This document shows, piece by piece, positions 1 to 32,260 of a stretch of DNA of 32,260 bases. The stretch's first letter is position 1. Each line of letters starts with the position of its first letter. Made by a program: the position numbers and the translations under genes. The stretch comes from an uncultured Burkholderiales bacterium (GTDB lineage: Bacteria; Pseudomonadota; Gammaproteobacteria; Burkholderiales; Burkholderiaceae_C), in the NCBI GenBank assembly GCA_937871935.1, contig CALMQI010000391.1, forward strand, positions 1 to 32,260, read 5' to 3'. The notes beneath the pieces were generated by a model. The model searched no databases. It was given only the letters and a program-made list of their open reading frames with translations, and had not been told where the DNA came from.

Positions 1-555
1 GTCGCCGACCTTCGTTTCGACGCCGCACCGGCCGTGCTGCTGGCCGCGGCGGCCGACCCCTGGGCGCTGGCGCGTCGGGTGCGCGATGCCGGCCGCATCG
101 TGCTGGCGGCCGACGCCATCGGCGCCGCGCAGCACATGCTCGACTCGGCCGTGGCCTGGGCCGGCGAGCGGGTGCAGTTCGGCCGCCTGATCGGCAGCTT
201 CCAGGGCCTCAAGCACACGCTGGCCGAAGCGGTGACGCTGCTCGAACCGTGCCGCGCGCTGTTGTGGCAGGCCGCGCACGCGCACGACCAGCAGGCCGAT
301 GACGCAGCGCTGCTGGCCTGCCACCTGAAGGCGCACGTCGGCGACGTGAGCCGCGAGGTCGCGCGCATGACGACCGAGGCGCACGGCGGCATGGGCTTCA
401 CCGATCTGCTCGGCCTGCACCACTGGTTCAGGCGCTGCGCCTTCGACCGCCAGTTTCTCGGCACGCCGGCGCAGTGCCGCGACGAGGCCGCTTCGCTGCA
501 GGGCTGGGACCAGCCCCTGCCCACCACCACTCTACCGACAGGAGTCACCGCTTGA
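1..555 (+). CDS. Acyl-CoA dehydrogenase, C-terminal part (5' end outside window)
   Basis: The open frame runs in from base 1 (VADLRFDAAP...), so the GTG at 34 in the ORF track is not a real start. The segment holds the C-terminal helical domain of an acyl-CoA dehydrogenase: AVAWAGERVQFGRLIGSFQGLKH is the usual family signature, followed by TEAHGGMGFTD. The enzyme would use FAD to form a 2-enoyl-CoA. Two places normally hold the catalytic glutamate. The helix-G position reads DAGRIVLAADAIG, with no Glu before the Arg. The C-terminal position reads FLGTPAQ instead of YEGT. Both therefore appear to lack the base. That pattern is known for the non-catalytic subunit of heteromeric ACADs such as the mycobacterial ChsE pairs, so a partner may lie just upstream. 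The stop overlaps the next gene's TTG start (TTGA), which indicates translational coupling. Family call firm; subunit role inferred. Confidence 0.88.
   Translation, partial: VADLRFDAAPAVLLAAAADPWALARRVRDAGRIVLAADAIGAAQHMLDSAVAWAGERVQFGRLIGSFQGLKHTLAEAVTLLEPCRALLWQAAHAHDQQADDAALLACHLKAHVGDVSREVARMTTEAHGGMGFTDLLGLHHWFRRCAFDRQFLGTPAQCRDEAASLQGWDQPLPTTTLPTGVTA
540..554 (+). promoter_or_regulatory. Ribosome binding site that decides a TTG start
   Basis: AGGAG at 540-544 sits 7 bases before TTG at 552-554. The ORF track starts this gene at 474, but the upstream 26 codons lie inside the preceding ACAD and encode no recognisable domain. The first family-like residues (GRVAAIIGMGDS) follow shortly after the TTG. 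The TTG/TGA overlap is a typical coupled junction. Confidence 0.75.
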
Positions 556-1781
556 AGACACCCGACCGCTCCCTCGGCCGCGTCGCCGCCATCATCGGCA
601 TGGGCGACTCGTACGCCGACAAGCAGGACGTCAAGGACCCGCTGCAGCTCGCCACCGAGGCGAGCTGGGCCGCGTTCAAGGACGCCGGCATCCGCAAGGA
701 CGACATCGACATCCTGCTCACCGGCCGTTCGCCCTGGGCCGACCGGCGGCCGCAGTGGAACAACATCTTCGCCTCGCACATGCAGATGCCGGTGCGCATG
801 ACGACCGAGATCACCTTCCACGGTGCCGGCGTCAACGCCATGATCGGCCAGGCCGCGCTGGCCATCGCCGCGGGCGTGGCCGACTACGTGCTGTGCGTGC
901 AGTCGGATGCGGTCGAGCTGTTCATCGACGCCACCGCGGTGGGCGCGGCCACCGACGCCTGCCCGCAGTTCGAGTTTCCCTACGGCCCGACGATTCCGAC
1001 CATCTACGCGCAGCTCGCCTGCCGCTACATGCACGAGTTCGGGGTCACCGAGGAAGACTTCGCCGAGGTCGCGGTGCAGCGCCAGGAATGGGCGATCCAT
1101 CACCCGAAAGCGGCCAAGCGCAGGCACGGCCTGATCACCGTCGACGACGTGATGCGCTCGCCCTACATCTCGTCGCCGCTGCGGCGCTGGATGTGCGCCA
1201 CCTGGGGGCCGGGCGGCACCGCGGGCGCCTTCGTCGTCACCAGCGTCGAACGCGCGAAGCAGGCCAAGCGCCCGATCTACATCCACGGCTTCGGCACCTG
1301 CACCACGCACGAGTACCTGTGTGAGCGCATCAACCTGCGCAAGAGCCGCATCCCGCTCGGGCCGCTGCCGGCCATCACCACCACCGGCGCCGCCCACGCC
1401 GCGCGCGAGGCCTACGCGATGGCCGACATGACACCCGCCGACATGCAGCTCGGTGCGCTGGCCGGCAACTTCTCGCACACCGTGCTCGTGCAGCTCGAAG
1501 ACCTGGGCTTCGCGCCCAAGGGCCGCGCCATGGACTTGGTGCGCAGCGGGCGCATGCGCCCGGGCGGCGACTTCCCGGTCGACACCAACGGCGGCTGGAT
1601 GGGCTTCGGCCAGCCCGGTATCTCGGTGGCCGCCGACTCGCTGGTCGAGACCGTGCGCCAGTTGCGCGGCGACCCGCTCGGTCTGCTCGCCGGCAACTCG
1701 CCCAAGCGCGCGATGGCGTATTCGGCCGGCGGCATGCTGGCCTGCCACAGCGCCGTCATCCTCGGCACCGAAGCCCAGTAG
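552..1781 (+). CDS. Thiolase-like protein without nucleophilic cysteine (SCP2/Ltp2-type, probable retro-aldolase)
   Basis: A 409-residue protein of the thiolase/lipid-transfer (SCPx, Ltp) superfamily. The start AAIIGMGDS, the middle AALAIAAGVADYVLCVQSDA and the C-terminal DTNGGWMGFGQPG all follow the thiolase plan. Where true thiolases have the acyl-accepting cysteine (xCASGxxA), this protein has TFHGAGVNAM, so a normal Claisen mechanism is unlikely. Proteins of this kind partnered with DUF35 act as retro-aldolases on beta-hydroxyacyl-CoA in steroid side-chain degradation, and the next gene is a DUF35 protein. It differs from its two relatives in this window: the segment that reads IYDSF or IYDCF there reads LAGNFSHT here. 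It may therefore use another substrate or chemistry. The exact reaction is not determinable from sequence. Confidence 0.85.
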   Translation: MKTPDRSLGRVAAIIGMGDSYADKQDVKDPLQLATEASWAAFKDAGIRKDDIDILLTGRSPWADRRPQWNNIFASHMQMPVRMTTEITFHGAGVNAMIGQAALAIAAGVADYVLCVQSDAVELFIDATAVGAATDACPQFEFPYGPTIPTIYAQLACRYMHEFGVTEEDFAEVAVQRQEWAIHHPKAAKRRHGLITVDDVMRSPYISSPLRRWMCATWGPGGTAGAFVVTSVERAKQAKRPIYIHGFGTCTTHEYLCERINLRKSRIPLGPLPAITTTGAAHAAREAYAMADMTPADMQLGALAGNFSHTVLVQLEDLGFAPKGRAMDLVRSGRMRPGGDFPVDTNGGWMGFGQPGISVAADSLVETVRQLRGDPLGLLAGNSPKRAMAYSAGGMLACHSAVILGTEAQ

Positions 1782-1792
1782 GAGCACACACC

Positions 1793-2236
1793 ATGTTGGA
1801 ACAAGGCGAATTCGCCGACTACACCGAATCATTCCCGACCCCGCGCGTCACGCAGGACGCGCTGCCCTACTGGGCCGCCGTCAAGGAAGGCCGGCTGCTG
1901 TTCCAGCGCTGCCCGGCCTGCCGCGGCGCGATCTTTCCACCGCGCTCGATATGCCCGATGTGCGAGGCCGGTGCCGTGCCGGTGTGGGAAGAGTCCAAGG
2001 GCGCGGGCAGCATCTACAGCTTCTCGGTCGTGCACCGGCCGCCCTCGGCGGTGTGGCGCGCGCGTTCGCCCTACACGATCGGCCTGGTGCGGCTCGACGA
2101 AGACTGGTTCCTGTTCACCGAGATCGAAGGCCGGCCCGAGGACATGGCGGTCGACAAGCGGGTGCAGGTGGCATTTCCCGAACGCGAGGTGCCGCTGCCG
2201 GTGTTCCGCCTTGCCGGCGGGGACGCACCGCGATGA
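1793..2236 (+). CDS. DUF35 zinc-ribbon/OB-fold protein, partner of the preceding thiolase-like protein
   Basis: This 147-residue protein has a rubredoxin-like zinc ribbon with four cysteines (QRCPACRG and ICPMCEAG, about residues 39-60). An OB-fold begins at GAGSIYSFSVVHRPP, the usual DUF35 linker signature. DUF35 proteins bind thiolase-like partners and are required for Ltp2-type aldolase activity, positioning the CoA substrate. It lies 11 bp after the thiolase-like gene, with AGGAG 8 bases before its ATG, and its stop overlaps the next start (ATGA). An extra N-terminal stretch of about 20 residues precedes the conserved PYWAAVKEGRL motif. The family is secure; the partner is inferred from adjacency. 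Confidence 0.9.
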   Translation: MLEQGEFADYTESFPTPRVTQDALPYWAAVKEGRLLFQRCPACRGAIFPPRSICPMCEAGAVPVWEESKGAGSIYSFSVVHRPPSAVWRARSPYTIGLVRLDEDWFLFTEIEGRPEDMAVDKRVQVAFPEREVPLPVFRLAGGDAPR

Positions 2237-6496: not shown

Positions 6497-7291
6497 GTGG
6501 CAGCGTCGAACGGAAAGCTGGCGAGCCTGGCCGACGCCGCCGAACTCGCGCGCGGCGCGGCGCGCGTCGCGCTCGGTGGCTGGAGCTTCAGCCGCCGGCC
6601 GCTGGCCGTGGCGATGCACTGGGCCGCGCACGGTCTGCGCTTCGACGAACTGCTGGTGCTGACCGGCGGCATCGAGACCGATCTGCTGGCCGCTGCCGGC
6701 GTGACGCAACGCGTGCGCGGCTTCTACCTCGGCATGGAGGCGCTGGGCATGGGGCCGGGGCTGAAGGCCGGCTGCGACGTGATCGAGGAGACCGAGACCT
6801 CGCTGATGCTGGGCCTGAACGCTGCGGTAGAGGGCGCGTCCTTCCTGCCGCTGGCGGCGCGCCACGGAGTGGCGCTGGCGCAGGTGCGGCCCGACTTGCG
6901 CCGCGTGCGCTGTCCCTACACCGATGAAGAGCAACTCGCGATCCCGCCCTTGCCCATCACCGTCGCCTACGTGCATGCCTGGCGCGCCGACCGCCGAGGC
7001 AATGCGGTGTTCGGTGGCCACCGGGCAGCCGACCGGCTGCTGGCGCTGGCGGCGCAGCGCACTGTCGTGAGCTGCGAAGAGCTGGTCGACGACATCACGG
7101 CCGGTGGCGTCGAAGCCGACCTCACCGAACCCCTGGTGAGCATGGTCGTGCACGCGCCCGGCGGCGCCCGGCCCGGCGGCTGCCTGCCCGGCTACGAGGC
7201 CGACTGGCCGGCACTGCTGGACTACACGGCACTCGACCGCGACAGCGTCGCCGGCTGGGCCCGTGCACGGCTCGAAGGAGGGGCACGATGA
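6497..7291 (+). CDS. CoA-transferase family I alpha-like subunit, resembling IpdA
   Basis: A 264-residue protein starting at GTG immediately after the ACAD stop. It begins KLASLADAAELARG and RVALGGWSFSRRPLAVA, the family-I CoA-transferase alpha-subunit pattern (GctA/CatI/IpdA). A glutamate-rich stretch, VIEETETSLMLGLNAAVEGASFLPL (Glu97, Glu98, Glu100), lies where the family has its conserved E.s....lrAaa.G.pFlP motif. In IpdA a functional glutamate is, as I recall, in this region. IpdAB hydrolyses the last alicyclic ring of steroids rather than moving CoA. The beta-like gene follows with an ATGA overlap. Ring hydrolase versus true CoA transferase is left open; the beta subunit's missing glutamate favours the former. 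Confidence 0.82.
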   Translation: MAASNGKLASLADAAELARGAARVALGGWSFSRRPLAVAMHWAAHGLRFDELLVLTGGIETDLLAAAGVTQRVRGFYLGMEALGMGPGLKAGCDVIEETETSLMLGLNAAVEGASFLPLAARHGVALAQVRPDLRRVRCPYTDEEQLAIPPLPITVAYVHAWRADRRGNAVFGGHRAADRLLALAAQRTVVSCEELVDDITAGGVEADLTEPLVSMVVHAPGGARPGGCLPGYEADWPALLDYTALDRDSVAGWARARLEGGAR

Positions 7292-8136
7292 ACGACGACA
7301 CCACCCACAGCGACGCGCCGGCCGACGTGGCCGAGATGATGGTCTGCACCATGAGCGACTGGCTGCTGCGCGCCGAGGTCATCCAGCTCGGCCTGGCTTC
7401 GGCGCTGAACCAGGTCGCCGCGCTGCTGGCGCAGGCGCGCACCAACGGCCAGGGCCCCGCGCTCGAAGACCCGGCGGCGCTGACGCTGACGCGTGCCCAG
7501 CGCCCGGCCTTCCTGAGCCGCAGCGAGCGCGCCGCCCAGATCGGCGCGCTGCGGCGCTACGAGGCGCCCGAATGGATCGGCCAGATGATGCCGCGCCTGG
7601 CCGGCCGCGTGCGCCAGTTCGTGCGCCCGCTGCAGATCGACGCCCAAGGGCGCATCAACAGCCTGCGCGTCGCCGACAAGCAGGGGCGCCTGCGCCGCTT
7701 CGCCGGCCTGGCGGGGCTGGCCGAACTGGCCGAGATCGCGCAGCCCTTCCTCGTCTACCTGCCGCAGCAGGACAGCCGCTGCTTTGTCGATGCGGTCGAC
7801 TTCGTCGTCGCCGACCCGCTGGCCGCGCACGCGCCGGGTGTCGGCCATGTGGTGATGGTCACCGACCTCGCGGTGTTCGAGTTCACGTCGGCCGGTGCGC
7901 GCGCCCTCAGCCGCCACCCCGGCGTGACGCACGAGCAGCTGCGCGAGCGCACGCCGGCTGGGGTGGCGGTGGGCAGCGTGCCGTACACGGCCAAACCGGA
8001 CGCCGCACTGCTGCAGCGGCTGCGCACGCAGATCGACCCGCATCACGTGCGCGACATCGAGTTCGCCAGCGGCCCGGCGCGGCGCGACGCGCTGCTGCGG
8101 CTGTACGAGCGGGAGGCGGCAGCGCCGCTGCGCTGA
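7288..8136 (+). CDS. CoA-transferase family I beta-like subunit, resembling IpdB, catalytic Glu not seen
   Basis: A 282-residue partner of the preceding gene (4-bp ATGA overlap). Family-like segments are EVIQLGLASALNQVAALLAQ, QFVRPLQIDAQGRINSL (equivalent to the aqiDrfGNiN motif) and CFVDAVDFVVADP followed by VVMVTDLAVFEF. True CoA transferases have an ExG glutamate that carries the acyl-glutamyl intermediate. The corresponding stretch here (ARTNGQGPALEDPAALTLTRAQ) has no ExG, and the glycine-rich GAGG loop is replaced by GLAGLAELAEIA. This fits a non-transferase function such as the ring hydrolysis of IpdAB. It is the last gene of block A; its stop lies 6 bp from the convergent MmgE/PrpD stop. 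Confidence 0.78.
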   Translation: MNDDTTHSDAPADVAEMMVCTMSDWLLRAEVIQLGLASALNQVAALLAQARTNGQGPALEDPAALTLTRAQRPAFLSRSERAAQIGALRRYEAPEWIGQMMPRLAGRVRQFVRPLQIDAQGRINSLRVADKQGRLRRFAGLAGLAELAEIAQPFLVYLPQQDSRCFVDAVDFVVADPLAAHAPGVGHVVMVTDLAVFEFTSAGARALSRHPGVTHEQLRERTPAGVAVGSVPYTAKPDAALLQRLRTQIDPHHVRDIEFASGPARRDALLRLYEREAAAPLR

Positions 8137-21240: not shown

Positions 21241-22482
21241 ATGTACCTAAAACTCAAGCTGATGCTCGGAGCGGCCGCCGTGCTGCTCGGAGCCGTGCCC
21301 GCGCACGCCGAAACCCTTCGCTTCGCGCTGTGCTACGACCTGACCAAGGCCTACACCTTCATCACGCCGCAGGTCGTGCAGGCGGTGCGCGACTATGCCG
21401 CGGTGCTCAACCTGAAGGGGGGCATCGAAGGCAATCCAATAGAGATCATCGTCCAGGACCATGGCAACGAGCCGCAGCGCGGGATCGAGTGCTACGAAAA
21501 GGTGAAGGACCAGGCGCTGACCGTCGATTTGCTGTCCACGCCGGTGTCGCGAGCCGTGCTGCCACGCGCGATGAAGGACGGCAAGGTGATGGTCCAGGCA
21601 CTCGTCGGCCGTGGCGATGCGGTGGATGGCGAGGTGTTCAAGTGGATCTTCCCGCTCGGCCCGACCTATTGGGGCCAGGCCGCCAACATTGTCAGCCACT
21701 TCAAGAAGCAGTCCGGCGGCAACCTGAAGGGCAAGAAGATCGCATTCCTGTACATCGACTACCCGTTCGGGCAAGAACCGATCCCGGTGATGCAGGAACT
21801 GCAGAAGCGTGAGGGCTTTGAGCTCCAGTTGTTCCCTTACCCGCTGCCGGGCAGCGACCAGTCGTCTGCCTGGTCGCAGATGCGCCGTTTCCAGCCCGAC
21901 CTGATCGTGCACTGGGCGTTCTCGGCCATGCACGTGGTCGCGTCGAAGGAGGCCAAGCGCAACGGCATATCGCTGGACAAGATGGTCACCGTGAACTGGT
22001 TCAACGAAACAGACCTGAACAATATCGGTAACGATGTCGCCAAGGGCATCCGCCGGTCAACCACGGTAGCCAGCGGCGTCGACAACCCCATCATGAAAGA
22101 CATCATTCGCGAGCTGTACGACAAGGGCAAGGGCAACGGCGATCGCAAGTTCCTCTCCGACATCTACTACTCCACGGGGCTGGCCATCTACGCGCCCATC
22201 TTCGAGGCCGCCCGACTGGCGGTGAAGAGCGACAAGACCCCGATGACTGCGGAGAAGATGCGCAAGGGTCTGGAGAGCGTGCGCGGCTTTGACGCCGGCG
22301 GCCTGTTGCCAGCGCTCACGGTCAGCGCCAAGGACCACGGCGGGGGCGGCAAGTCGCGGATCGAACTGTGGGATGGCTCGAAGTGGATCCCGCAGGGGGA
22401 CTGGATCGCCGACTACAACGACCTGATCTGGAGCACGGTGAAGCAGCACTCGGCGGAATTCGCCAAATCCACCGGGCAGTGA
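21241..22482 (+). CDS. Liv-type periplasmic substrate-binding protein, copy 1 of 3
   Basis: A 413-residue type I periplasmic binding protein with Sec signal peptide MYLKLKLMLGAAAVLLGAVPAHA, probably cut after A23. The mature part begins ETLRFALCYDLTKAYTFITPQ. Conserved features shared with the next two genes are VQDHGNEPQRGIECYEKVK, VSRAVLPRAMKDG, GDAVDGEVFKWIFPLGPTYWGQAAN, and the C-terminal KDHGGGGKSRIELWDGSKW. It should deliver substrate to the LivHM-like channel. This copy has the 5' leader with AGGAG nine bases before ATG. Ligand unknown; aromatic or fatty-acid-like carboxylates fit the adjacent synthetase. Confidence 0.93.
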   Translation: MYLKLKLMLGAAAVLLGAVPAHAETLRFALCYDLTKAYTFITPQVVQAVRDYAAVLNLKGGIEGNPIEIIVQDHGNEPQRGIECYEKVKDQALTVDLLSTPVSRAVLPRAMKDGKVMVQALVGRGDAVDGEVFKWIFPLGPTYWGQAANIVSHFKKQSGGNLKGKKIAFLYIDYPFGQEPIPVMQELQKREGFELQLFPYPLPGSDQSSAWSQMRRFQPDLIVHWAFSAMHVVASKEAKRNGISLDKMVTVNWFNETDLNNIGNDVAKGIRRSTTVASGVDNPIMKDIIRELYDKGKGNGDRKFLSDIYYSTGLAIYAPIFEAARLAVKSDKTPMTAEKMRKGLESVRGFDAGGLLPALTVSAKDHGGGGKSRIELWDGSKWIPQGDWIADYNDLIWSTVKQHSAEFAKSTGQ

Positions 22483-22490
22483 TCCATTTC

Positions 22491-22521
22491 GCCCCACACC
22501 GGCCTGCGGCCGGTGTGGGGC
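22491..22521 (+). terminator. Perfect 14-bp stem-loop between binding-protein genes 1 and 2
   Basis: GCCCCACACCGGCC (22491-22504) and GGCCGGTGTGGGGC (22508-22521) form a perfect stem with a TGC loop, starting 8 bases after the stop of copy 1. No run of T follows (ACAAACCG), so it is not a classical intrinsic terminator. It more likely acts as a 3' barrier to RNA decay or as a partial terminator that sets the ratio between copy 1 and the genes behind it. Confidence 0.75.
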
Positions 22522-22544
22522 ACAAACCGAACAGGAGAATTCAT

Positions 22545-23789
22545 ATGCGATCCACTCTGAAGAGAGTGCTGGTGGCAGCCACCTTGCTGGTCTCGGCCCA
22601 GGTTACGCTGGCCGCGGATCCGGTCAAGTTCGGTTTGTGCTACGACCTGACGAAGATCTATGTTGCTGCCGTCCCGCAATTGGCACAGGCCGTCAAGGAC
22701 TACGCCGACCTGCTCAACGCGCGCGGTGGCCTCGAAGGACACCCGATCGAAGTCACGGTCCAGGATCATGGTAACGAACCCCAACGTGGAATCGACTGCT
22801 ACGAGCGTCTGAAGCGTGAAGGCACGATGGTCTTCGACTTCTTCTCGACGCCGGTCTCCCGCGCCGTGCTGCCGCGCATCATGCAGGACGGGAACATCCT
22901 GGTGCAGCCCCTGGTGGGCCGGGGTGACGCCGTCGACGGCGAAGTCTTCAAGCAGGTGTTTCCGTTGGCTCCGACCTATTGGGGCCAAGCGGCAAACATC
23001 ATCAGCTACTTCAAGAAGCAAGGCGGGGGAAGCCTCAAAGGCAAGAAGGTGGCTTTCCTGTACCTCGACACGCCCTTTGGCCGCGAGCCAACGCCGGTGT
23101 TCGAGGCTCTGAAACGGCTCGAGAGCTTCGAGTACCAGGCATTTCCATTCCCCGTGCCGGGCAATGACCAGAGCGCGGCGTTCACGCAGATTCGGCGCTT
23201 CCAGCCCGACTGGCTGATCCTGTGGTCCTTCTCACCGCTGAATCCGATCACCTTCCGCGAGATGCAGCGCAACGGCATTCCGATCGACAGGATGGTGACC
23301 GTGAACTGGATCAACGAGGTCGACATCAACAACTTTGGTGCCGCCGCTGCAAAGGGACTCAAACGCTCGACTGTTGTCGTCGGCGGAGCTGAGCATCCTT
23401 TGGTGAAGGACATCCTGCGCGAGGTATACGACAAGGGCAAAGGCAATGGCGACCGGAAACTCGTCGCCGATTCCTACTACAACACGGGTCTGGCCGTGTA
23501 CTCGTCTGTCTTCGAAGGCGTGCGAATCGCCATCAAGACGCAGGGTTGGCCCCTGACACCGGAGAAGATCCGACAGGGCATGTATGGCATCAAGAACTTC
23601 GATGCCAAGGGCTTCATGGCGCCGATCACCGTCACGCCCAAGGACCACGGCGGTGGCGGCAAAACCCGCATCGACATGTGGGACGGCAGCAAGTGGGTCG
23701 CCCAGACCGACTGGTTCGCCGACTACACGGGCCTGGTCAACACGCTCGTCAAGGCCAATTCTGCAGACTTTGCCAAGGCCAACAAGTAG
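22545..23789 (+). CDS. Liv-type periplasmic substrate-binding protein, copy 2 of 3
   Basis: A 414-residue paralogue of its two neighbours. The signal peptide MRSTLKRVLVAATLLVSAQVTLAA is followed by DPVKFGLCYDLTKIYVAAVPQ. It keeps QDHGNEPQRGIDCYERLK, FFSTPVSRAVLPRIMQDG, FPLAPTYWGQAAN and KDHGGGGKTRIDMWDGSKW. It differs in the ligand-side segment LILWSFSPLNPITFREMQRNG, where copies 1 and 3 have IVHWAFSAMHVVASKE and IVHWGVGPMNVVALKE. This suggests a changed ligand preference. The true start is ATG 22545, seven bases after AGGAG; the track start at 22368 is inside copy 1. Confidence 0.93.
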   Translation: MRSTLKRVLVAATLLVSAQVTLAADPVKFGLCYDLTKIYVAAVPQLAQAVKDYADLLNARGGLEGHPIEVTVQDHGNEPQRGIDCYERLKREGTMVFDFFSTPVSRAVLPRIMQDGNILVQPLVGRGDAVDGEVFKQVFPLAPTYWGQAANIISYFKKQGGGSLKGKKVAFLYLDTPFGREPTPVFEALKRLESFEYQAFPFPVPGNDQSAAFTQIRRFQPDWLILWSFSPLNPITFREMQRNGIPIDRMVTVNWINEVDINNFGAAAAKGLKRSTVVVGGAEHPLVKDILREVYDKGKGNGDRKLVADSYYNTGLAVYSSVFEGVRIAIKTQGWPLTPEKIRQGMYGIKNFDAKGFMAPITVTPKDHGGGGKTRIDMWDGSKWVAQTDWFADYTGLVNTLVKANSADFAKANK

Positions 23790-23803
23790 GGCGCCTCTGC
23801 GCC
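23790..23803 (+). other. Small hairpin between binding-protein genes 2 and 3
   Basis: GGCGC and GCGCC form a perfect 5-bp stem with a CTCT loop, beginning on the base after the stop of copy 2 and ending just before the GAGGAGA ribosome site of copy 3. It is much weaker than the hairpin between copies 1 and 2, and may simply reflect GC-rich sequence. Confidence 0.35.
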
Positions 23804-23818
23804 GCGAGGAGACAAGAC

Positions 23819-25069
23819 ATGTACAAATGGTGGAAAGCGGCGCTTGCCGCCATGACGCTCTCGACCGCGGGGCAAGCCGCCTGGGCGGCCGAACCTATCA
23901 AGTTCGGGCAGTGTTACGACCTGACCAAGGTCTACGGCTTCATCTCGCCACAGATCGCGCAGGCATCACGCGACCTGGCCGCCCTGATCAACGCGAAAGG
24001 CGGCATCAGCGGCCGGCCGATCGAATTGCTGCTCAACGATCACGGCAACGAGCCGCAGCGCGGCGTGGAATGCTACGAGCGCCTGAAGCGAGACGGCGTG
24101 GTCGTGTTCGACTTCTTCTCGACCCCTGTCGCGCGCGCGCTGTTGCCCCGGGTGATGCAGGACGGCAATATCCAGCTCCAGGCCTTGCATGGCCGTGCCG
24201 ACGCGGTCGACGGTGAGGTCTTCAAGACGATCTTCCCGCTTGGCCCGACCTATTGGGGTCAAGCCGCGAACATGATCAGCTACATCAAGCGGCAAGCCGG
24301 CGCGAACATCAAGACCACGAAGGTCGCATTCCTCTACGCCGACTACCCGTTTGGACAGGAGCCGATCCCGATCCTGCAGGAGTTGCAGAAGCGCGAGGGC
24401 TTCGAGCTGCAGATGTTCCCCTACCCGTTGCCAGGCAATGACGTGAGCTCTGCCATGAGCCAGATCCGGCGCTATCAGCCGGACTGGATCGTCCACTGGG
24501 GTGTGGGGCCGATGAATGTCGTCGCCCTGAAAGAGATGAAACGCAGCGGCATCCCGAACGAGAAGTTCATCACCGTCAACTGGCTAAACGAAACCGACAT
24601 CGCCAACCTCGGTGCCGAAGCGGCCAAGGGCGCGAAACGATCCTCCGTCGTGGTCGGCGGCGGCACCGACACCGCGCTGCTGAGGGAAATCACCAAGGAA
24701 CTGTACGACAAGGGCAAGGGTGGCGGCGACCGCAAGTTCTTGTCCGACACCTACTACAACGTGTCTCTGGCCATCTGGTCGACCGTCTTCCAGGGCGTAG
24801 AGCTCGCGCTGAAGAATGACCCCGGCCCGTTGACTGCGGACAAGGTTCGCAAGGGCATGGAAAGCCTGCGCAGCTACGACGCCAACGGCCTGATGCCCCC
24901 GCTGACGATCACCGCGAAGGACCACGGCGGCGGCGGCAAGACCCGCATCGACATGTGGGACGGCACAAAGTGGGTGCCGCAGACCGACTGGTTCGCCGAC
25001 TACACCGACCTGGTCTGGGCCACGGTCAAGCAGCACTCCGCGACCTTCGCCAAACCGAGCACCAAGTAA
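23819..25069 (+). CDS. Liv-type periplasmic substrate-binding protein, copy 3 of 3
   Basis: A 416-residue third paralogue. The signal peptide MYKWWKAALAAMTLSTAGQAAWAA is followed by EPIKFGQCYDLTKVYGFISPQ. It keeps NDHGNEPQRGVECYERLK, FFSTPVARALLPRVMQDG, FPLGPTYWGQAANMISY and KDHGGGGKTRIDMWDGTKW. It shares features with both other copies: the FFSTPV segment with copy 2, and the EPIP...LQKREGFELQ segment with copy 1. This is consistent with stepwise duplication or with gene conversion. Start ATG 23819 has GAGGAGA upstream; the longer track ORF begins inside copy 2. The LivF-like ATPase follows 4 bp after its stop. Confidence 0.93.
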   Translation: MYKWWKAALAAMTLSTAGQAAWAAEPIKFGQCYDLTKVYGFISPQIAQASRDLAALINAKGGISGRPIELLLNDHGNEPQRGVECYERLKRDGVVVFDFFSTPVARALLPRVMQDGNIQLQALHGRADAVDGEVFKTIFPLGPTYWGQAANMISYIKRQAGANIKTTKVAFLYADYPFGQEPIPILQELQKREGFELQMFPYPLPGNDVSSAMSQIRRYQPDWIVHWGVGPMNVVALKEMKRSGIPNEKFITVNWLNETDIANLGAEAAKGAKRSSVVVGGGTDTALLREITKELYDKGKGGGDRKFLSDTYYNVSLAIWSTVFQGVELALKNDPGPLTADKVRKGMESLRSYDANGLMPPLTITAKDHGGGGKTRIDMWDGTKWVPQTDWFADYTDLVWATVKQHSATFAKPSTK

Positions 25070-26817: not shown

Positions 26818-26835
26818 CGCCGGCTCAGGCCGGCG
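26818..26835. terminator. Short GC-rich hairpin at the convergent end of blocks C and D
   Basis: CGCCGGC (26818-26824) and GCCGGCG (26829-26835) form a 7-bp stem with a TCAG loop. The loop contains the stop codon of the leftward DUF35 gene. No T-run is present on either strand. It could slow both converging transcripts but is not a classical terminator. Confidence 0.35.
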
Positions 26836-27217
26836 TGAACACCGGCATGGGCGGCCCGCCCTCGCTGGCATTGAACTTCAACGTCACCGCCTGCCCGATG
26901 CGCACTGCGTCGGCATCGGCGTCGACGATGTTGCTCATCATCGTCGGGCCTTCGGCGAGTGTCACGTAGGCGATGATGTAGGGCACCTCGGCGCGCCGCA
27001 TGACGCTGAAGCTGTAGATGGTGCCCTTGCCGCTGGCCTGCCGCCACTGCAGGCGTTCGCTGCCGCAGAACGGGCAGGCGGCGCGCGGGTAGTGGTGGTG
27101 CTCGCCGCAGTCGTCGCACTGCTTGACCAGCAGGCGGCCTTCGCCGGCGGCGTCCCAGAAGGCCTTCGTCTCCGGGTAGACGGTGGGGGCGACGAGCTTG
27201 CGTTCCTTGATCAGCAT
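26825..27217 (-). CDS. DUF35 zinc-ribbon/OB-fold protein (end of block D)
   Basis: This 130-residue protein has four zinc-ribbon cysteines in KQCDDCGE and ACPFCGSE (about residues 34-53), then GKGTIYSFSVMRR leading into the OB-fold. The start at 27217 (GGGAG five bases upstream) replaces the longer track ORF, whose extension overlaps the thiolase-like gene. It begins 2 bp after the thiolase-like stop. By family knowledge it should form a complex with that protein and complete the CoA-substrate site. Of the three DUF35 proteins here it is the shortest and the most standard. Confidence 0.9.
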   Translation of the reverse strand: MLIKERKLVAPTVYPETKAFWDAAGEGRLLVKQCDDCGEHHHYPRAACPFCGSERLQWRQASGKGTIYSFSVMRRAEVPYIIAYVTLAEGPTMMSNIVDADADAVRIGQAVTLKFNASEGGPPMPVFTPA

Positions 27218-27219
27218 GT

Positions 27220-28386
27220 TCACTCCCGTTCCATGATCAATGTGCCGCTGCCGTGGCGCGTGCCCAGCGAGCCGCCGGTGCCGTGCGCCAGCGCCAGCCT
27301 GCAGTTCGGAACCTGCACCTTCGGGTGCGCCTCGGCGCGCAGCTGGCGCACCGCTTCGATCACCTTGGTCATGCCGCCGCGGTTGCCGGGGTGGTTGTTG
27401 CACAGGCCGCCGCCGTCGGTGTTGAAGGGCAGCTTGCCGGTGCCGGAGATCAGGTTGCCGTCGGACACGAAGCGGCCGCCCTCGCCCTTCTTGCAGAAGC
27501 CCAGGTCTTCCAGCGTCAGCAGCACGGTGATCGTGAAGCTGTCGTAGATCGACGCGTACTGGATGTCGGCAGGCTTCACGCCGGCTTCGGCGAAGGCTGC
27601 CGGTCCGGTCCAGGCCGCGCCGGTGGTCAGCAGGTCGACCTTGCCGCCGATCTGCGCGCGCATGAACTCGCCGGTGCCGATGACCTTGACCAGCGGACGC
27701 TTGAGCTGGCGCGCGATCTCCGGCCGCACCACGACGAGCGCGCCGCCACCGTCGCTGATGACGCAGCAGTCCAACCGGTGCAGCGGGTCCGAAATCATCG
27801 GCGAGCCGACCACGTCCTGCACCGTCACCACGTCGCGCACCATCGCGTGCGGGTTGTGCTGGGCGTGGTGCGACGCGGCCACGCGGATCCAGGCCAGCTG
27901 CTCGCTGGTGGTGCCGTGCTCGTGCATGTGGCGCATGGCGGCCATGGCATACATGTTGACGGTGGTCGGCGCGTAGGGCAGCTCGAACGGCACGTCGGGC
28001 GCGGCGCCGTAGTTGCGCGGCGCGGTGCCGGTGGCCATGCCCTCGGCCTTGGGCCGCCCGGCCAGCGTGATCAGCGCCACGTTGCAGCGGCCGGCGGCGA
28101 TGGCCGCTGCGGCATGCGCGACGTGCACCACGTACGACGAGCCACCGGTCTCGGTGGTGTCGACGTGCCTGAGTGTCATGCCCATGTAGTCGACCATGCT
28201 CAACGCACCCAGGCCCGGCGCGTCGCCGGCGCAGAAGTAGCCGTCGACGTCACGAATCGTCAGCCCGGCGTCGGCGAGCGCGCCGCGCGCGACCTCGGCA
28301 TGCAGTTGCGCCACCGACTTGTCGTCGGCGCGCCGGATCGGGTGCTCGTAGGCTCCCGCGATGTAGGCCTTGCCCTTCAGGCTCAT
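27220..28386 (-). CDS. Thiolase-like protein without nucleophilic cysteine (Ltp2-type, probable retro-aldolase)
   Basis: A 388-residue SCP2/Ltp-type thiolase-superfamily protein. It begins GKAYIAGAYEHPIRRADDKS and has HAAAAIAAGRCNVALITLAG in the middle. The position of the thiolase cysteine reads VDTTETGGSSYVVHV, so the nucleophile is absent. It keeps CNNHPGNRGGM (related to the thiolase GHPxGxxG) and has ASIYDSFTITVLLTLEDLGF where thiolases have NEAFA. A tyrosine here fits the repurposed active site of Ltp2 aldolases. It overlaps the MaoC gene upstream by ATGA and precedes a DUF35 gene by 2 bp. Probable reaction: splitting a beta-hydroxyacyl-CoA into a ketone or aldehyde and a short acyl-CoA. 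Confidence 0.88.
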   Translation of the reverse strand: MSLKGKAYIAGAYEHPIRRADDKSVAQLHAEVARGALADAGLTIRDVDGYFCAGDAPGLGALSMVDYMGMTLRHVDTTETGGSSYVVHVAHAAAAIAAGRCNVALITLAGRPKAEGMATGTAPRNYGAAPDVPFELPYAPTTVNMYAMAAMRHMHEHGTTSEQLAWIRVAASHHAQHNPHAMVRDVVTVQDVVGSPMISDPLHRLDCCVISDGGGALVVVRPEIARQLKRPLVKVIGTGEFMRAQIGGKVDLLTTGAAWTGPAAFAEAGVKPADIQYASIYDSFTITVLLTLEDLGFCKKGEGGRFVSDGNLISGTGKLPFNTDGGGLCNNHPGNRGGMTKVIEAVRQLRAEAHPKVQVPNCRLALAHGTGGSLGTRHGSGTLIMERE

Positions 28387-28772
28387 TGGTTTCCCTTTGC
28401 CGGCTTGACGGTGGCTGTGCCCTTGATTACGTCCTGCCCCTTGCCGTTGCGCACCCACACGTCGTAAACCGGCGGCCGGATTCCCTCGCGCAGCTCGCCG
28501 CCGCCGGTAACGTCGTCGTCGATGCGCACCGGCTGCACGAAGCGGATCTCCAGGTGCACGCGGTTCAGCGCGTCGGCGCCCAGCGTGTTCCTCAGCGCTT
28601 GCCAGATCAGCGCCACCGACATCGTGCCGTGCGCGATGATCCCGCCCATCGGGCTCTTGGCGGCAAACGCCTTGTCGACGTGAATCGGGTTGTAGTCGTT
28701 CGTCACCGCCGCGTAGGCCATGATGGTGTCGAAGTCGACGTGCCTGGTCGATGCCTTCAGCTGCTTGTCCAT
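28383..28772 (-). CDS. MaoC-like enoyl-CoA hydratase subunit with intact hydratase motif
   Basis: A 129-residue hot-dog-fold protein carrying the complete hydratase-2 motif, VTNDYNPIHVDKAFA followed by GGIIAHGTMSVAL; Asp, Asn and His are all in place. It would add water to a 2-enoyl-CoA. The gene immediately upstream (9-bp gap) encodes another hot-dog protein without this motif, so the two likely form a heteromer like ChsH1-ChsH2, where one subunit is catalytic. AAAGGG lies five bases before the ATG. Its product, a beta-hydroxyacyl-CoA, is the expected substrate of the adjacent thiolase-like proteins. Confidence 0.9.
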   Translation of the reverse strand: MDKQLKASTRHVDFDTIMAYAAVTNDYNPIHVDKAFAAKSPMGGIIAHGTMSVALIWQALRNTLGADALNRVHLEIRFVQPVRIDDDVTGGGELREGIRPPVYDVWVRNGKGQDVIKGTATVKPAKGNQ

Positions 28773-28781
28773 GGCGACCCT

Positions 28782-29183
28782 TTATTGCGCGACCAGCGTG
28801 GTCATGATGCCGCTGAACAGCAACTCGCCCGAGCCCACAGCCCGCGTCTCGCTGCGCACGCGCACCCACTTGCGGTCCTTCTTGACTTCCTTGTCCAGGC
28901 ACCACACTTCGGTGCGCAAGGTCTCGCCGATGCGCGGCATGCGCAAGATGTCGAAAGTCTGCCCGCCATGTACGCCGCCGGGCGGACGCGGCGCGTTCAG
29001 CGTCAGCACGGCGTCGATGACGATCATCGCCAGCATGCCGCCGGGCATGACGCCGGGGTCGTCGTCGTTCGGGTACACGCTGCGCCACTTGGCGATGGTC
29101 GCCTCGTCGACGCTGAAGTCGCGCGTGCCGTAGTTCTTGCCCGGCTCGTAATGGTCGTAGTTGAAGATGGCGGGCTCACTCAT
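28782..29183 (-). CDS. MaoC-like hot-dog protein lacking the catalytic motif
   Basis: A 133-residue protein of the FAS1-like/MaoC dehydratase N-terminal type, with VMPGGMLAMIVIDAVLTL and the later GGQTFDILRMPRIGETLRTE. The hydratase-2 DxxxxNPxHxD motif is absent: the equivalent stretch is WRSVYPNDDDPGVMPGG. In ChsH2 a comparable non-catalytic hot-dog half is fused to a DUF35 domain. Here the DUF35 protein is a separate gene directly upstream, overlapping by ATGA. It should support substrate binding in a complex with the catalytic MaoC gene that follows. Role inferred from this arrangement. Confidence 0.82.
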   Translation of the reverse strand: MSEPAIFNYDHYEPGKNYGTRDFSVDEATIAKWRSVYPNDDDPGVMPGGMLAMIVIDAVLTLNAPRPPGGVHGGQTFDILRMPRIGETLRTEVWCLDKEVKKDRKWVRVRSETRAVGSGELLFSGIMTTLVAQ

Positions 29184-29599
29184 GATGTTTCGGGCTCCAC
29201 TTGCGGAACCTTCTGTTCGGTGCCGGGGCGGGTCTCGTAGCACACGCGCACGCGCATGCCGATCTTCACCGTCGCCGGGTCGCAGTTCAGCACGTTGCAC
29301 ATGAAGCGGAAGCCCTCGTCCAGGTCCACCAGCGCCAGCACGTAGGGCGTGTCGGCCATGAACGCCGCGATCGGCGCGCGATGGATCACCGAGAAGCTGG
29401 CCACGCGCCCGAGACCTTCGGCCACCTGCCATTGCAGCTCGGTGCTCTGGCAGTGCACGCAGGCGTAACGCGAATAGAACTGCGCCTTGCCGCAGGTGCG
29501 GCAGCGCTGGAAGCGGAACTCGCCCTGGTTCGCACCCTCCCAATAAGGCCGGCTGATGCTGTCCGGCACCGGCATTGGTTTGGCTTGCACTTCGGCCAT
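29180..29599 (-). CDS. DUF35 zinc-ribbon/OB-fold protein (middle of block D)
   Basis: A 139-residue DUF35 protein with RCRTCGK and ACVHCQST zinc cysteines and GRVASFSVIHRAPI leading into the OB-fold. Its start at 29599 is 2 bp after the stop of the thiolase-like gene, and its stop overlaps the non-catalytic MaoC start. It can therefore associate either with the thiolase-like protein (aldolase function) or, as in ChsH2, with the hot-dog protein (hydratase function), and perhaps bridges both so that the hydrated intermediate is passed on. The bridging is inference from known ChsH1-ChsH2-Ltp2 organisation. Confidence 0.9.
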   Translation of the reverse strand: MAEVQAKPMPVPDSISRPYWEGANQGEFRFQRCRTCGKAQFYSRYACVHCQSTELQWQVAEGLGRVASFSVIHRAPIAAFMADTPYVLALVDLDEGFRFMCNVLNCDPATVKIGMRVRVCYETRPGTEQKVPQVEPETS

Positions 29600-29601
29600 G
29601 G

Positions 29602-30753
29602 TCAGGCCCTCCCCATGATGATCGAGCAATGGCCGGAGAAGATGCCGCCCAGCGTGTGGGCCAGCGCCACTTCCGCGTCCTTGACCTGGCGCGGGCCGCA
29701 CTCGCCGCGCAACTGGCGCACCGCCTCGACGACGTGGAACATGCCGCCGGCCGCGCCCGACGAGCCGTACGACAGCAGGCCGCCGTTGGTGTTGACGGGA
29801 AAGCGCCCGCCGATCGCAAACTCGCCGGCCAGCGCCGCCGGGCCGGCCTCACCGCGGCCGTAGAAGCCCATCGACTCCAGCGTGATGAGCAAGGTGCTGG
29901 TGAAACAGTCGTAGATGTGCGCGCAGTCGACGTCCTTGTGCTTCAGGCCGGCCTGGGCCAGCGCGTCGGCGGCCGACTCCTTGCAGCCGAAATCGACTAG
30001 CGAGGGCGCCGCGAAGATGTGCTCGTGCGTGTGGCCTTCGCCGATGCCCAGCAGTTCGACGGCGCGCTTGGGTCGGTCTCGCCCGGTCTCTGCCGCGCTG
30101 ACCACCACCGCGGCACCGCCGTCGGACACCAGGCAGCAGTCGAGCATGCGCAGCGGCGAGGCAATCACCTTTGACTTGCGCACATCGTCCATCGTGATCG
30201 GCTTCTTCATGTGCGACTGCGGGTGCAGCGCGGCGTTGGTGCGCTGGTTCACCGCCACCGCTGCGAGGTGCTCGCCGTTGAGCCAGCCTTCGTGGAAGTA
30301 GACCTGGGCGGCCATCGCGAACGCGGCGGGCACGCTCATGCCGTAGGGCTGCTCGTACTGCGGGTGGCCGACGTCGGCCAGCGCAGCCTGAACCCTGTCG
30401 CCCAGGCCGGTCAGGCGGTTGTCACCGGTGACGCACAGCACATGGCGGCAGCGCCCCGAACGCACCAGCGACTCGGCATGACGCACCAGCAGACCACCGG
30501 TCATGCCGCCCATGGCGATCGAGGCGTTGACTTTGGGGCGCAGGCCGATGTATTCGCCCAGCACCCCGCCCAGCATCAGCTGCGGCGACGCGAACGAGTA
30601 CGCCGTCAGCAGCCCGTCGATGTCCGACACCTTCAGCCCTGCGTCGGCCAGCGCGCCCAGCGCGGCTTCGACATGCAATGACATACAGGTGCTGTCGGGC
30701 AGCGCGCCGACCCGCGTGTCGTGCACGCCGCTGATGATGGCTTTGGTTCCCAT
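29602..30753 (-). CDS. Thiolase-like protein without nucleophilic cysteine (second in block D)
   Basis: A 383-residue SCP2/Ltp-type protein. The cysteine position reads ASIAMGGMTGGLLV, so the thiolase nucleophile is missing. AHIYDCFTSTLLITLESMGF keeps the tyrosine-aspartate at the place of the thiolase NEAFA motif, and the end reads NTNGGLLSYGSSGAAGG. It is more like the other block D protein than the block A protein in the YD segment. Start ATG 30753 replaces the longer track ORF, whose first 26 residues overlie the NMO-like gene. The DUF35 gene follows after 2 bp. Probable retro-aldolase for a beta-hydroxyacyl-CoA, substrate unknown. Confidence 0.87.
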   Translation of the reverse strand: MGTKAIISGVHDTRVGALPDSTCMSLHVEAALGALADAGLKVSDIDGLLTAYSFASPQLMLGGVLGEYIGLRPKVNASIAMGGMTGGLLVRHAESLVRSGRCRHVLCVTGDNRLTGLGDRVQAALADVGHPQYEQPYGMSVPAAFAMAAQVYFHEGWLNGEHLAAVAVNQRTNAALHPQSHMKKPITMDDVRKSKVIASPLRMLDCCLVSDGGAAVVVSAAETGRDRPKRAVELLGIGEGHTHEHIFAAPSLVDFGCKESAADALAQAGLKHKDVDCAHIYDCFTSTLLITLESMGFYGRGEAGPAALAGEFAIGGRFPVNTNGGLLSYGSSGAAGGMFHVVEAVRQLRGECGPRQVKDAEVALAHTLGGIFSGHCSIIMGRA

Positions 30754-30775: not shown

Positions 30776-31903
30776 TTAGGCCAGACTGATGCGCACATCG
30801 CGCTGCAGCCGCCGGATCTCGTGGACGGCACCGTCGACCAGGTCGGTCATGATGTCGCGCGCCGGGCGCCGCGACTTGAGCAGGCCGCCCACCTGACCGG
30901 CGATGTTGTAGAAAAGGTCGTGACGGCCGGCAGCAAGCGCCGCGGACAGGAAGTCTTCCATGAGGATGCGCTGGTACGGCGTTTCCAAGGTCGGCAGTCC
31001 GGACTCTGCCCAGGCCTGAGAGATCTCACCGTGGAAGGCACGCACCGTCTTGCCGGTCCAGACCTTGCTAATGCGGAAGGCCTCGGAGTCCGCCGCCACG
31101 ATCTGGTCCTTGCAGCTGTCGAACAGCTCGCATTCGTCGGCCACCAGGAAGGCGGTGCCCAGCCAGGCGGCCTGCGCGCCCAGCACCAGTGCGGCGACTA
31201 TCCCGCGGCCATCGGCGATGCCGCCGGCAGCGATCACCGGCGTCGGGTTCACGGCATCGACGACCTGCGGGATCAAGGGCAGCGAAGCCACGGTTCCGGT
31301 ATGGCCGCCGGCCTCGGTGCCCTGCGCGACGATCGCGTCGACGCCCGACTTGCGCTGGCGCACCGCGTTGCGCACCGAGCCCGACAGGCCGATCAGCTTC
31401 ATGCCCTGGGCCCGCGCGCGCGGCAGCAGGAAATCGGGGTCGCCCAATCCCGCGGCGAAGATCGGCACGCCTTCCTCGAACACCACGGCGAGCACCGACT
31501 TGGCGTACTCGATGTTGACCACCGTTTCGTCGGCCGGTTGCACCGCAGGCAGCTGGTAGCGCTGGATCAGCGTCTGCACGAAGGCGGCATGCTCGGGGTA
31601 GCGGCGCTTGATCTCGTCGCGCACGCCCGAACGGGTGTCGGGTGCGTCGGCGATGCGCGCCGGCAGCAGCAGGTCGACGCCGAAGGGACGGTCAGTGAGC
31701 GAACGCACCTCGCGGATGCGACGCCGTGTTTCCTCCGGCGACAGCCCCGAGCAGCCCAGCACGCCACAGCCCCCCGCCTGCGACACCGCCGCCACCAGCT
31801 TCGGCGGTGTGGCCCGCCCGCCGACGCCCATGCCGGCGAGAAAGATCGGGTACTCGATGCCGAGCGACTCGCAGAAAGCGTTTTGCAGAACCGGACGGAC
31901 CAT
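30776..31903 (-). CDS. Nitronate-monooxygenase-like flavoprotein, possibly IpdC-type
   Basis: A 375-residue TIM-barrel FMN protein of the nitronate monooxygenase family. It starts IEYPIFLAGMGVGG. The conserved AQGTEAGGHTGTVASLPLIPQV and PVIAAGGIADGRGIVAALVLGA, which bind the flavin phosphate, are intact. In steroid degraders a protein annotated this way (IpdC) oxidises a hydroxylated ring intermediate next to echA20 and ipdAB. Here it sits directly behind an enoyl-CoA hydratase (TGATG overlap) and in front of a thiolase-like gene, so a catabolic oxidoreductase is more likely than nitronate detoxification. The ATG at 31903 is preferred over the GTG just before it. The IpdC call is context-based. 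Confidence 0.85.
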   Translation of the reverse strand: MVRPVLQNAFCESLGIEYPIFLAGMGVGGRATPPKLVAAVSQAGGCGVLGCSGLSPEETRRRIREVRSLTDRPFGVDLLLPARIADAPDTRSGVRDEIKRRYPEHAAFVQTLIQRYQLPAVQPADETVVNIEYAKSVLAVVFEEGVPIFAAGLGDPDFLLPRARAQGMKLIGLSGSVRNAVRQRKSGVDAIVAQGTEAGGHTGTVASLPLIPQVVDAVNPTPVIAAGGIADGRGIVAALVLGAQAAWLGTAFLVADECELFDSCKDQIVAADSEAFRISKVWTGKTVRAFHGEISQAWAESGLPTLETPYQRILMEDFLSAALAAGRHDLFYNIAGQVGGLLKSRRPARDIMTDLVDGAVHEIRRLQRDVRISLA

Positions 31904-32260
31904 CACTTGAATTCGGGCTTGCGCTTGGCGCGAAAGGCGGCCACGCCCTCCTTCACGTCGTCGGTCTGGAACAGGAAGGGGAACGCATCGACCGCGTAGC
32001 GCATGTCGTCGCCGCCCAGTCCGCGGTTGTAGAAGGACTTCGCCATCTGCACCGCCATATGCGGTTTGCCAGCGAGCTTCTCGGCAAGGGCCATCGCCTC
32101 GTCGAGCAGCTTGTCGTGGACGACGGTGCGCAAGGCAATGCCCAGTCGCACCGCCTCGGCGGCGTCGATCGGCTCGCCCAGCATGCTCAGCTCCTTGGCC
32201 TTGGGGCGGCCGACGATGCCGTGCAGCCGCAGCAGCGCAAAGCCCGGCAGTAAGCCGAGT
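31903..32260 (-). CDS. Enoyl-CoA hydratase/isomerase family protein, C-terminal part (5' end outside window)
   Basis: The frame continues to the window edge, upstream of the M at 32184: LGLLPGFALLRLHGIVGRPK, then AKELSMLGEPIDAAEAVRLGI. This is the crotonase-family pattern LGLlPgfGgtqrLprlvGrakA...G.pidA.eA..lGLv. About 118 residues are visible; the oxyanion-hole region and the glutamates lie outside. It ends VAAFRAKRKPEFK, the usual family C-terminus. It could be a hydratase, an isomerase or, like EchA20, a ring hydrolase. The adjacent NMO-like gene makes the EchA20-type comparison worth testing. Confidence 0.87.
   Translation of the reverse strand, partial: LGLLPGFALLRLHGIVGRPKAKELSMLGEPIDAAEAVRLGIALRTVVHDKLLDEAMALAEKLAGKPHMAVQMAKSFYNRGLGGDDMRYAVDAFPFLFQTDDVKEGVAAFRAKRKPEFK

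Follow-up and report, generated by a model that had tools for sequence, protein, structure and literature searches.

Among the hydratase-aldolase systems described to date, Ltp2-ChsH2-ChsH1 (igr operon; ORF40-44 of TA441) combines a thiolase-fold aldolase, a DUF35 domain and an inert and a catalytic MaoC half in one operon. The steroid is held by the inert MaoC half of ChsH1-ChsH2 and the chemistry is done by the other half (PMC11321319), and the MaoC and DUF35 domains of TA441 ORF40 are functional in vivo when expressed separately (PMC12502768). In the CtSal aldolase of the Sal-Shy type, which acts on the C5 side chain of bile acids, the nucleophilic Cys is replaced by Gly, the YDxF Tyr is retained, the catalytic pair is Tyr302 and Cys304 (Tyr294 and Tyr344 in TcLtp2), and the C304S variant is inactive (PMC12329534). 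Its partner Shy is a single fused DUF35-MaoC protein with a C3H1 zinc finger that forms a homodimeric hydratase; in previously described hydratase-aldolase complexes for steroids, DUF35 sits on the hydratase polypeptide. The accessory protein of the aldolase is encoded by its own gene in Atf1-ChsH4 of the Mycolicibacterium HBC operon and in IpfD-IpfE, of which IpfE is DUF35-like. ChsH4 is described as a stand-alone DUF35 protein (PMC10398937) and IpfDE as performing the retro-aldolase/thiolase step of ibuprofen degradation (PMC9195938); the substrates of both systems are known, and the sections of these two reports considered here mention no neighboring MaoC pair. HadA-HadB and HadB-HadC are heteromeric MaoC pairs of fatty acid synthesis that operate without an aldolase or DUF35.

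A block of six separate genes related to these systems is encoded in the window, i.e., the whole stretch of 32,260 nucleotides of an uncultured Burkholderiales bacterium that was analyzed here (Table 1). The six open reading frames occupy positions 26825-30753 of the minus strand, in agreement with the coordinates and junctions of the original prediction: gaps of 2 bp separate T1 from D1 and T2 from D2, a gap of 9 bp separates M1 from M2, and ATGA overlaps join D1 to M1 and M2 to T2. The operon begins upstream of T1 with the genes for a crotonase and a flavoenzyme whose best relatives in the PDB are FabK proteins (30776-32260). The C4 zinc finger is kept in both D1 (C-x2-C-x10-C-x2-C) and D2. 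A literature search for this gene arrangement found no paper.

Table 1. Genes of the block, its operon and other features of the window.
Feature	Position	Strand	Family match	Assignment
T1	29602-30753	-	Thiolase_C_1, 190 bits (Pfam)	Predicted retro-aldolase, DUF35-partnered thiolase fold
D1	29180-29599	-	zf-ChsH2 + OB_ChsH2_C (Pfam)	Stand-alone DUF35, predicted T1 partner
M1	28782-29183	-	None (Pfam); MaoC-type hot-dog fold without Asp/His	Predicted inert, substrate-holding hydratase half
M2	28383-28772	-	MaoC_dehydratas, 71.7 bits (Pfam)	Predicted catalytic (R)-enoyl-CoA hydratase half
T2	27220-28386	-	Thiolase_C_1 (Pfam); PRK08142 subfamily	Predicted second aldolase-like enzyme
D2	26825-27217	-	zf-ChsH2 + OB_ChsH2_C (Pfam)	Stand-alone DUF35, T2 partner
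FabK/nitronate-monooxygenase-type flavoenzyme	30776-31903	-	NMO, 201 bits	Same operon as T1
Enoyl-CoA hydratase/isomerase (crotonase) fragment	31906-32260	-	ECH_1, 64.9 bits	Contig end, same operon
T3, third thiolase-fold protein	555-1778	+	Thiolase_C_1, 113 bits	Outside the block
CoA-transferase family I alpha subunit and probable beta subunit after it	6497-8133	+	CoA_trans, alpha only	

M1 and M2 had been described as MaoC proteins without and with the catalytic motif, and motif alignments uphold their division into an inert and an active partner: M1 lacks the D..NP.H motif throughout 19 relatives, and residues D26, N28, P29, H31 and G49 of M2 are invariant among 19 relatives. M1 has no match in Pfam, and its profile gave only marginal matches in the PDB; its AlphaFold model (pLDDT 88.6), which Foldseek relates to PhaJ (PhaJ1), MaoC and HadA at E ~1e-6, indicates that it is a MaoC-type hot-dog protein and places it near the Had pairs. 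By sequence and fold, a predicted inert M1 next to an Asp/His-bearing M2 has the subunit make-up of a heteromeric MaoC hydratase, and by analogy the two would fit the division of labor of ChsH1-ChsH2. M1 is distinct from ChsH2, a dyad-less MaoC fused to DUF35, because M1 and D1 are separate genes. Moreover, it shows no significant similarity (hmmsearch, E ~0.03-0.05; hhalign, E 0.11) to the ChsH2 MaoC domain of G093. The G093 genome is of Comamonas type, belongs to the family from which the window comes, carries KshA and supplied the reference Sal, Ltp2 and fused DUF35-MaoC proteins. The steroid cluster of G093 has the fused layout and served as a control for the proposal, which holds, that the ChsH2 fusion is split here.

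For the thiolase-like proteins, three aligned positions were compared: the nucleophile column, the YDxF motif and the acid column. These read Cys, HDAF, HDCF or NEAF, and His in true thiolases; Gly, YDCY and Gln in Sal; Gly, YDHF and Tyr in Ltp2; Gly, YDCF and Ser in T1 (Tyr281, Cys283 and Ser331, the last where Ltp2 has Tyr344); and Gly, YDSF and His in T2 (Tyr281, Ser283 and His332). Thus, as had been proposed, neither protein has the catalytic cysteine, and a thiolase function is ruled out for both by the Gly in its place; the Tyr of YDxF is retained in both. In the tree, T1, T2, Sal and Ltp2 (references CtSal, TcLtp2 and the G093 proteins) fall in one Cys-less superclade (38 rows, 100/100), apart from the Cys-bearing thiolases, and each forms its own clade within it. 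The Gly, the YDxF Tyr and the neighboring DUF35 gene place T1 and T2 in the Sal/Ltp2-like superclade of DUF35-partnered aldolases. Since CtSal uses Tyr302 and Cys304, Tyr281 and Cys283 of T1 are read as a Sal-like dyad; however, T1 lacks equivalents of Gln347 and Gln352 of Sal, has Ser331, is accompanied by a C4 finger and lies in a different clade, and thus does not belong to the Sal family. It is also outside the Ltp2 family, which is defined by YDHF with Tyr344 and a clade of its own (32.8% identity to G093 Ltp2). Deeper relatives of T1 (locus L026, Roseovarius and Azospirillum) have YDSF together with His331; hence, as far as aligned residues can indicate, the acid function in the T1 lineage appears to have shifted from His331 to Cys283. 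T2 scores 733.8 bits against NF006010 (PRK08142), for which the curated cut-off is 462, and its His332 is the retained histidine of the thiolase HPG motif. The predicted acid pair of T2 is Tyr281 and His332, the latter at the acid position of Ltp2. The AlphaFold model of T1, built from a shallow alignment, has a pLDDT of 42 and was not used as evidence.

A search of 85,462 genomes with the M1 profile yielded 14 loci. The complete T-D-M-M-T-D order, with almost unchanged gaps and with the crotonase and FabK-like genes upstream, is present in four other Burkholderiales genomes (L014-L017: a Rubrivivax MAG, a Burkholderiales MAG, the isolate Caenimonas sedimenti and an Aquabacterium MAG), and a Panacagrimonas MAG (L018) has T-D-M-M-T up to the point where its contig stops. 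All six genes are under purifying selection (dN/dS ~0.05-0.28, window vs L014-L018; D2 is absent from L018). This recurrence rules out a chance order, and the expectation that relatives would share it is borne out. The original prediction named two findings that would count against it, a catalytic cysteine in either thiolase-like protein and an order seen in no relative; given the Gly at the Cys column and the recurring order, neither was made. T-D-M-M without an adjoining T2-D2 occurs at L019-L021 and L023-L025; hosts of this four-gene core include Polaromonas, other Comamonadaceae, Betaproteobacteria and two gammaproteobacterial MAGs, and it is also carried, with a crotonase gene alongside, by alphaproteobacterial plasmids of Roseovarius and Azospirillum. 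The M1-M2 pair of Sulfitobacter adjoins a gene annotated as "CoA ester lyase" where T-D would be. The FabK-type gene lies upstream of T1 in L014-L018, L020, L024 and L025.

Strong relatives of M1 are rare in the order (3/300 genomes at E <= 1e-20, including that of the window; 7/300 at E <= 1e-6). T2 is commoner (29/300), D2 lies beside it in all 19 of the loci examined within the order, and a strong M1 match (E <= 1e-20) is missing from 26 of the 29 T2-bearing genomes; therefore, the block is a core cassette with an added bicistron. T1-D1-M1-M2 is an ancient cassette in its own right. T2-D2, an independent bicistron that can stand alone, is found behind the cassette in just one closely related group; its stand-alone neighborhoods contain no recurring partner gene other than D2. 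The block had been presented as two pairs around a split hydratase; a symmetrical unit of this kind is not supported, because each part also occurs alone. T1 and T2 are old paralogues, and their ~37% identity and different clades rule out that one T-D pair arose from the other by recent tandem duplication. All 14 M1-bearing genomes carry T2, adjacent or not, which may point to a shared pathway; lifestyle can account for part of this co-occurrence, because a control T family is likewise enriched in M1-bearing genomes (9/14 vs 26/300, E <= 1e-110).

The reading that we favor, with moderate confidence, is that T1-D1-M1-M2 is a split hydratase-aldolase cassette of the ChsH1-ChsH2-Ltp2 type and T2-D2 a separate pair acting elsewhere in the same pathway, on a different CoA ester. 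Judging from families and motifs, the cassette is likely to perform hydration and retro-aldol cleavage, and we infer complex formation, chemistry, direction and substrate as follows. M1-M2 would be a heteromeric hydratase in which M1 holds the bulky acyl group and Asp26 and His31 of M2 hydrate the enoyl-CoA. T1-D1 would then cleave the 3-hydroxyacyl-CoA by a retro-aldol reaction, in which the hydroxyl proton would pass to Tyr281 of T1 and Cys283 would supply a proton to the acyl-CoA enolate; the products would be a ketone or aldehyde and acetyl- or propionyl-CoA, and no 3-keto intermediate would be required. T2-D2, which would have been attached once to the operon end, is probably a second, independent enzyme of the same kind with a different acid residue, and probably cleaves a different CoA ester through Tyr281 and His332. 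The activity of T2 is uncertain because it has Ser at the position of CtSal Cys304, where the C304S change inactivates CtSal. T2-D2 could instead be a Claisen-type lyase, acyltransferase or decarboxylase of the unstudied PRK08142 family next to a hydratase-aldolase T1-D1-M1-M2. This tentative possibility draws on the same Ser, on the retained HPG histidine and on the closest solved structure, 4u4e, which is named simply "Thiolase"; however, T2 lacks the nucleophilic Cys, has the YD motif and a DUF35 partner as known aldolases do, and falls within the Sal/Ltp2 superclade.

It is unlikely that the single M1-M2 hydratase serves the two aldolase pairs, whether within one complex or one after the other, in two successive hydrations and retro-aldol cuts. 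The translationally coupled order in the window, L014-L017 and, up to its contig end, L018 would suit such sharing, as would the T2 gene of every M1 genome, but the T2 genomes without strong M1, the T-D-M-M loci without adjoining T2-D2 and the divergence of T1 from T2 speak against it. The analysis gave no evidence of a hydratase or complex common to both aldolases. A six-protein assembly in which one split hydratase feeds two aldolases, T1 with Cys283 and T2 with His332, that make two consecutive cuts in the same alicyclic or branched acyl-CoA, appears improbable. We regard as similarly improbable that the genes are divergent Sal/Shy or Ltp2/ChsH orthologues of classical bile acid or sterol side-chain degradation. 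The families and logic are identical, and the FabK-type and IpdA-like genes close by are reminiscent of steroid ring degradation, in which IpdC is also FabK-like (PMC5380842); the CoA-transferase alpha subunit distantly resembles the ring-opening hydrolase IpdA (6con/6co6, ~57 bits). However, KshA was not found in the genome of the window (~92% complete), in those of L016, L023 and L024, or in the Caenimonas isolate, whereas the identical search gave strong matches in G093, G245 and G285; furthermore, G093 Sal and Ltp2 are ~32% identical to T1 and lie in other clades, and the zinc finger is C4, not C3H1. The parallel with steroid degradation therefore stands for the mechanism but not for the pathway.

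In the Caenimonas operon, genes for a branched-chain-type 2-oxoacid dehydrogenase (E1 alpha, E1 beta and E2), acyl-CoA dehydrogenases, a ligase and crotonases lie upstream, with an IclR regulator gene beyond; together with the gene content around the block in the window, this suggests the breakdown of branched or alicyclic acids. The substrate class is thus probably a branched or alicyclic acid and not a classical aerobic steroid. The fully split version makes the domain roles testable gene by gene and suggests that hydratase-aldolase chemistry extends past the known steroid enzymes. Among the T1 relatives, the acid residue of the aldolase has switched naturally, with Ser283/His331 in L026, Roseovarius and Azospirillum vs Cys283/Ser331 in the lineage of the T1 of the window. 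In addition, the PRK08142 family, common yet uncharacterized, gains a genomic partner. Elsewhere, the window also encodes acyl-CoA ligases, acyl-CoA dehydrogenases and a Liv-type ABC transporter. The putative beta-subunit gene after the CoA-transferase alpha subunit has no family match, and in T3 the YDxF motif has been lost, with AGNF in its place.

A T family resembling 4u4e, the nearest solved relative of T2, with membership set at a minimum of 65% identity, was found in 7 of the 14 genomes bearing M1, the inert MaoC subunit, but in only 2 of the 300 genomes of the order sample, both of which also carry M1; this family may be part of the same pathway. T-type matches numbered 14 in each of the two genomes compared, one of them that of the isolate Caenimonas sedimenti, in which an IclR regulator gene separates a further T gene and its DUF35 partner from the operon.

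Features in the window and at related loci
Feature	Location	Strand	Remarks
Third T-D pair (T3 + DUF35)	555-2231	+	OB domain at 1985-2176
Liv-type ABC transporter cluster	21241-25069	+	LivG, ligase, LivH, LivM, three LivK, LivF
4u4e-like T family members	L085 (G000:C208); G300:C45:34778
Further T gene, DUF35 adjoining	L042 2412-3638		YDCF with His; upstream of Caenimonas operon
Distant M1-M2 pair, then 'CoA ester lyase'	L143 7980-9560		Sulfitobacter plasmid

T3 sits on a long branch and no longer has the tyrosine of the YDxF motif, which here reads AGNF; this thiolase-fold protein may lack activity or serve a structural role. Caenimonas holds a near-identical copy (99%). On the Sulfitobacter plasmid, a gene annotated 'CoA ester lyase' follows M1-M2 in place of T-D, which suggests that the split hydratase can function with another C-C lyase.

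L018, a 12 kb contig carrying T-D-M-M-T, is binned as Panacagrimonas (Gammaproteobacteria), and its T1 and T2 are 91–93% identical to those of Burkholderiales, a likeness that probably reflects recent transfer or mis-binning.

The three LivK-type binding proteins of the window are paralogous and consecutive within a single transporter cluster; three full copies are visible in L015, a locus with the block order, versus only two in Caenimonas.
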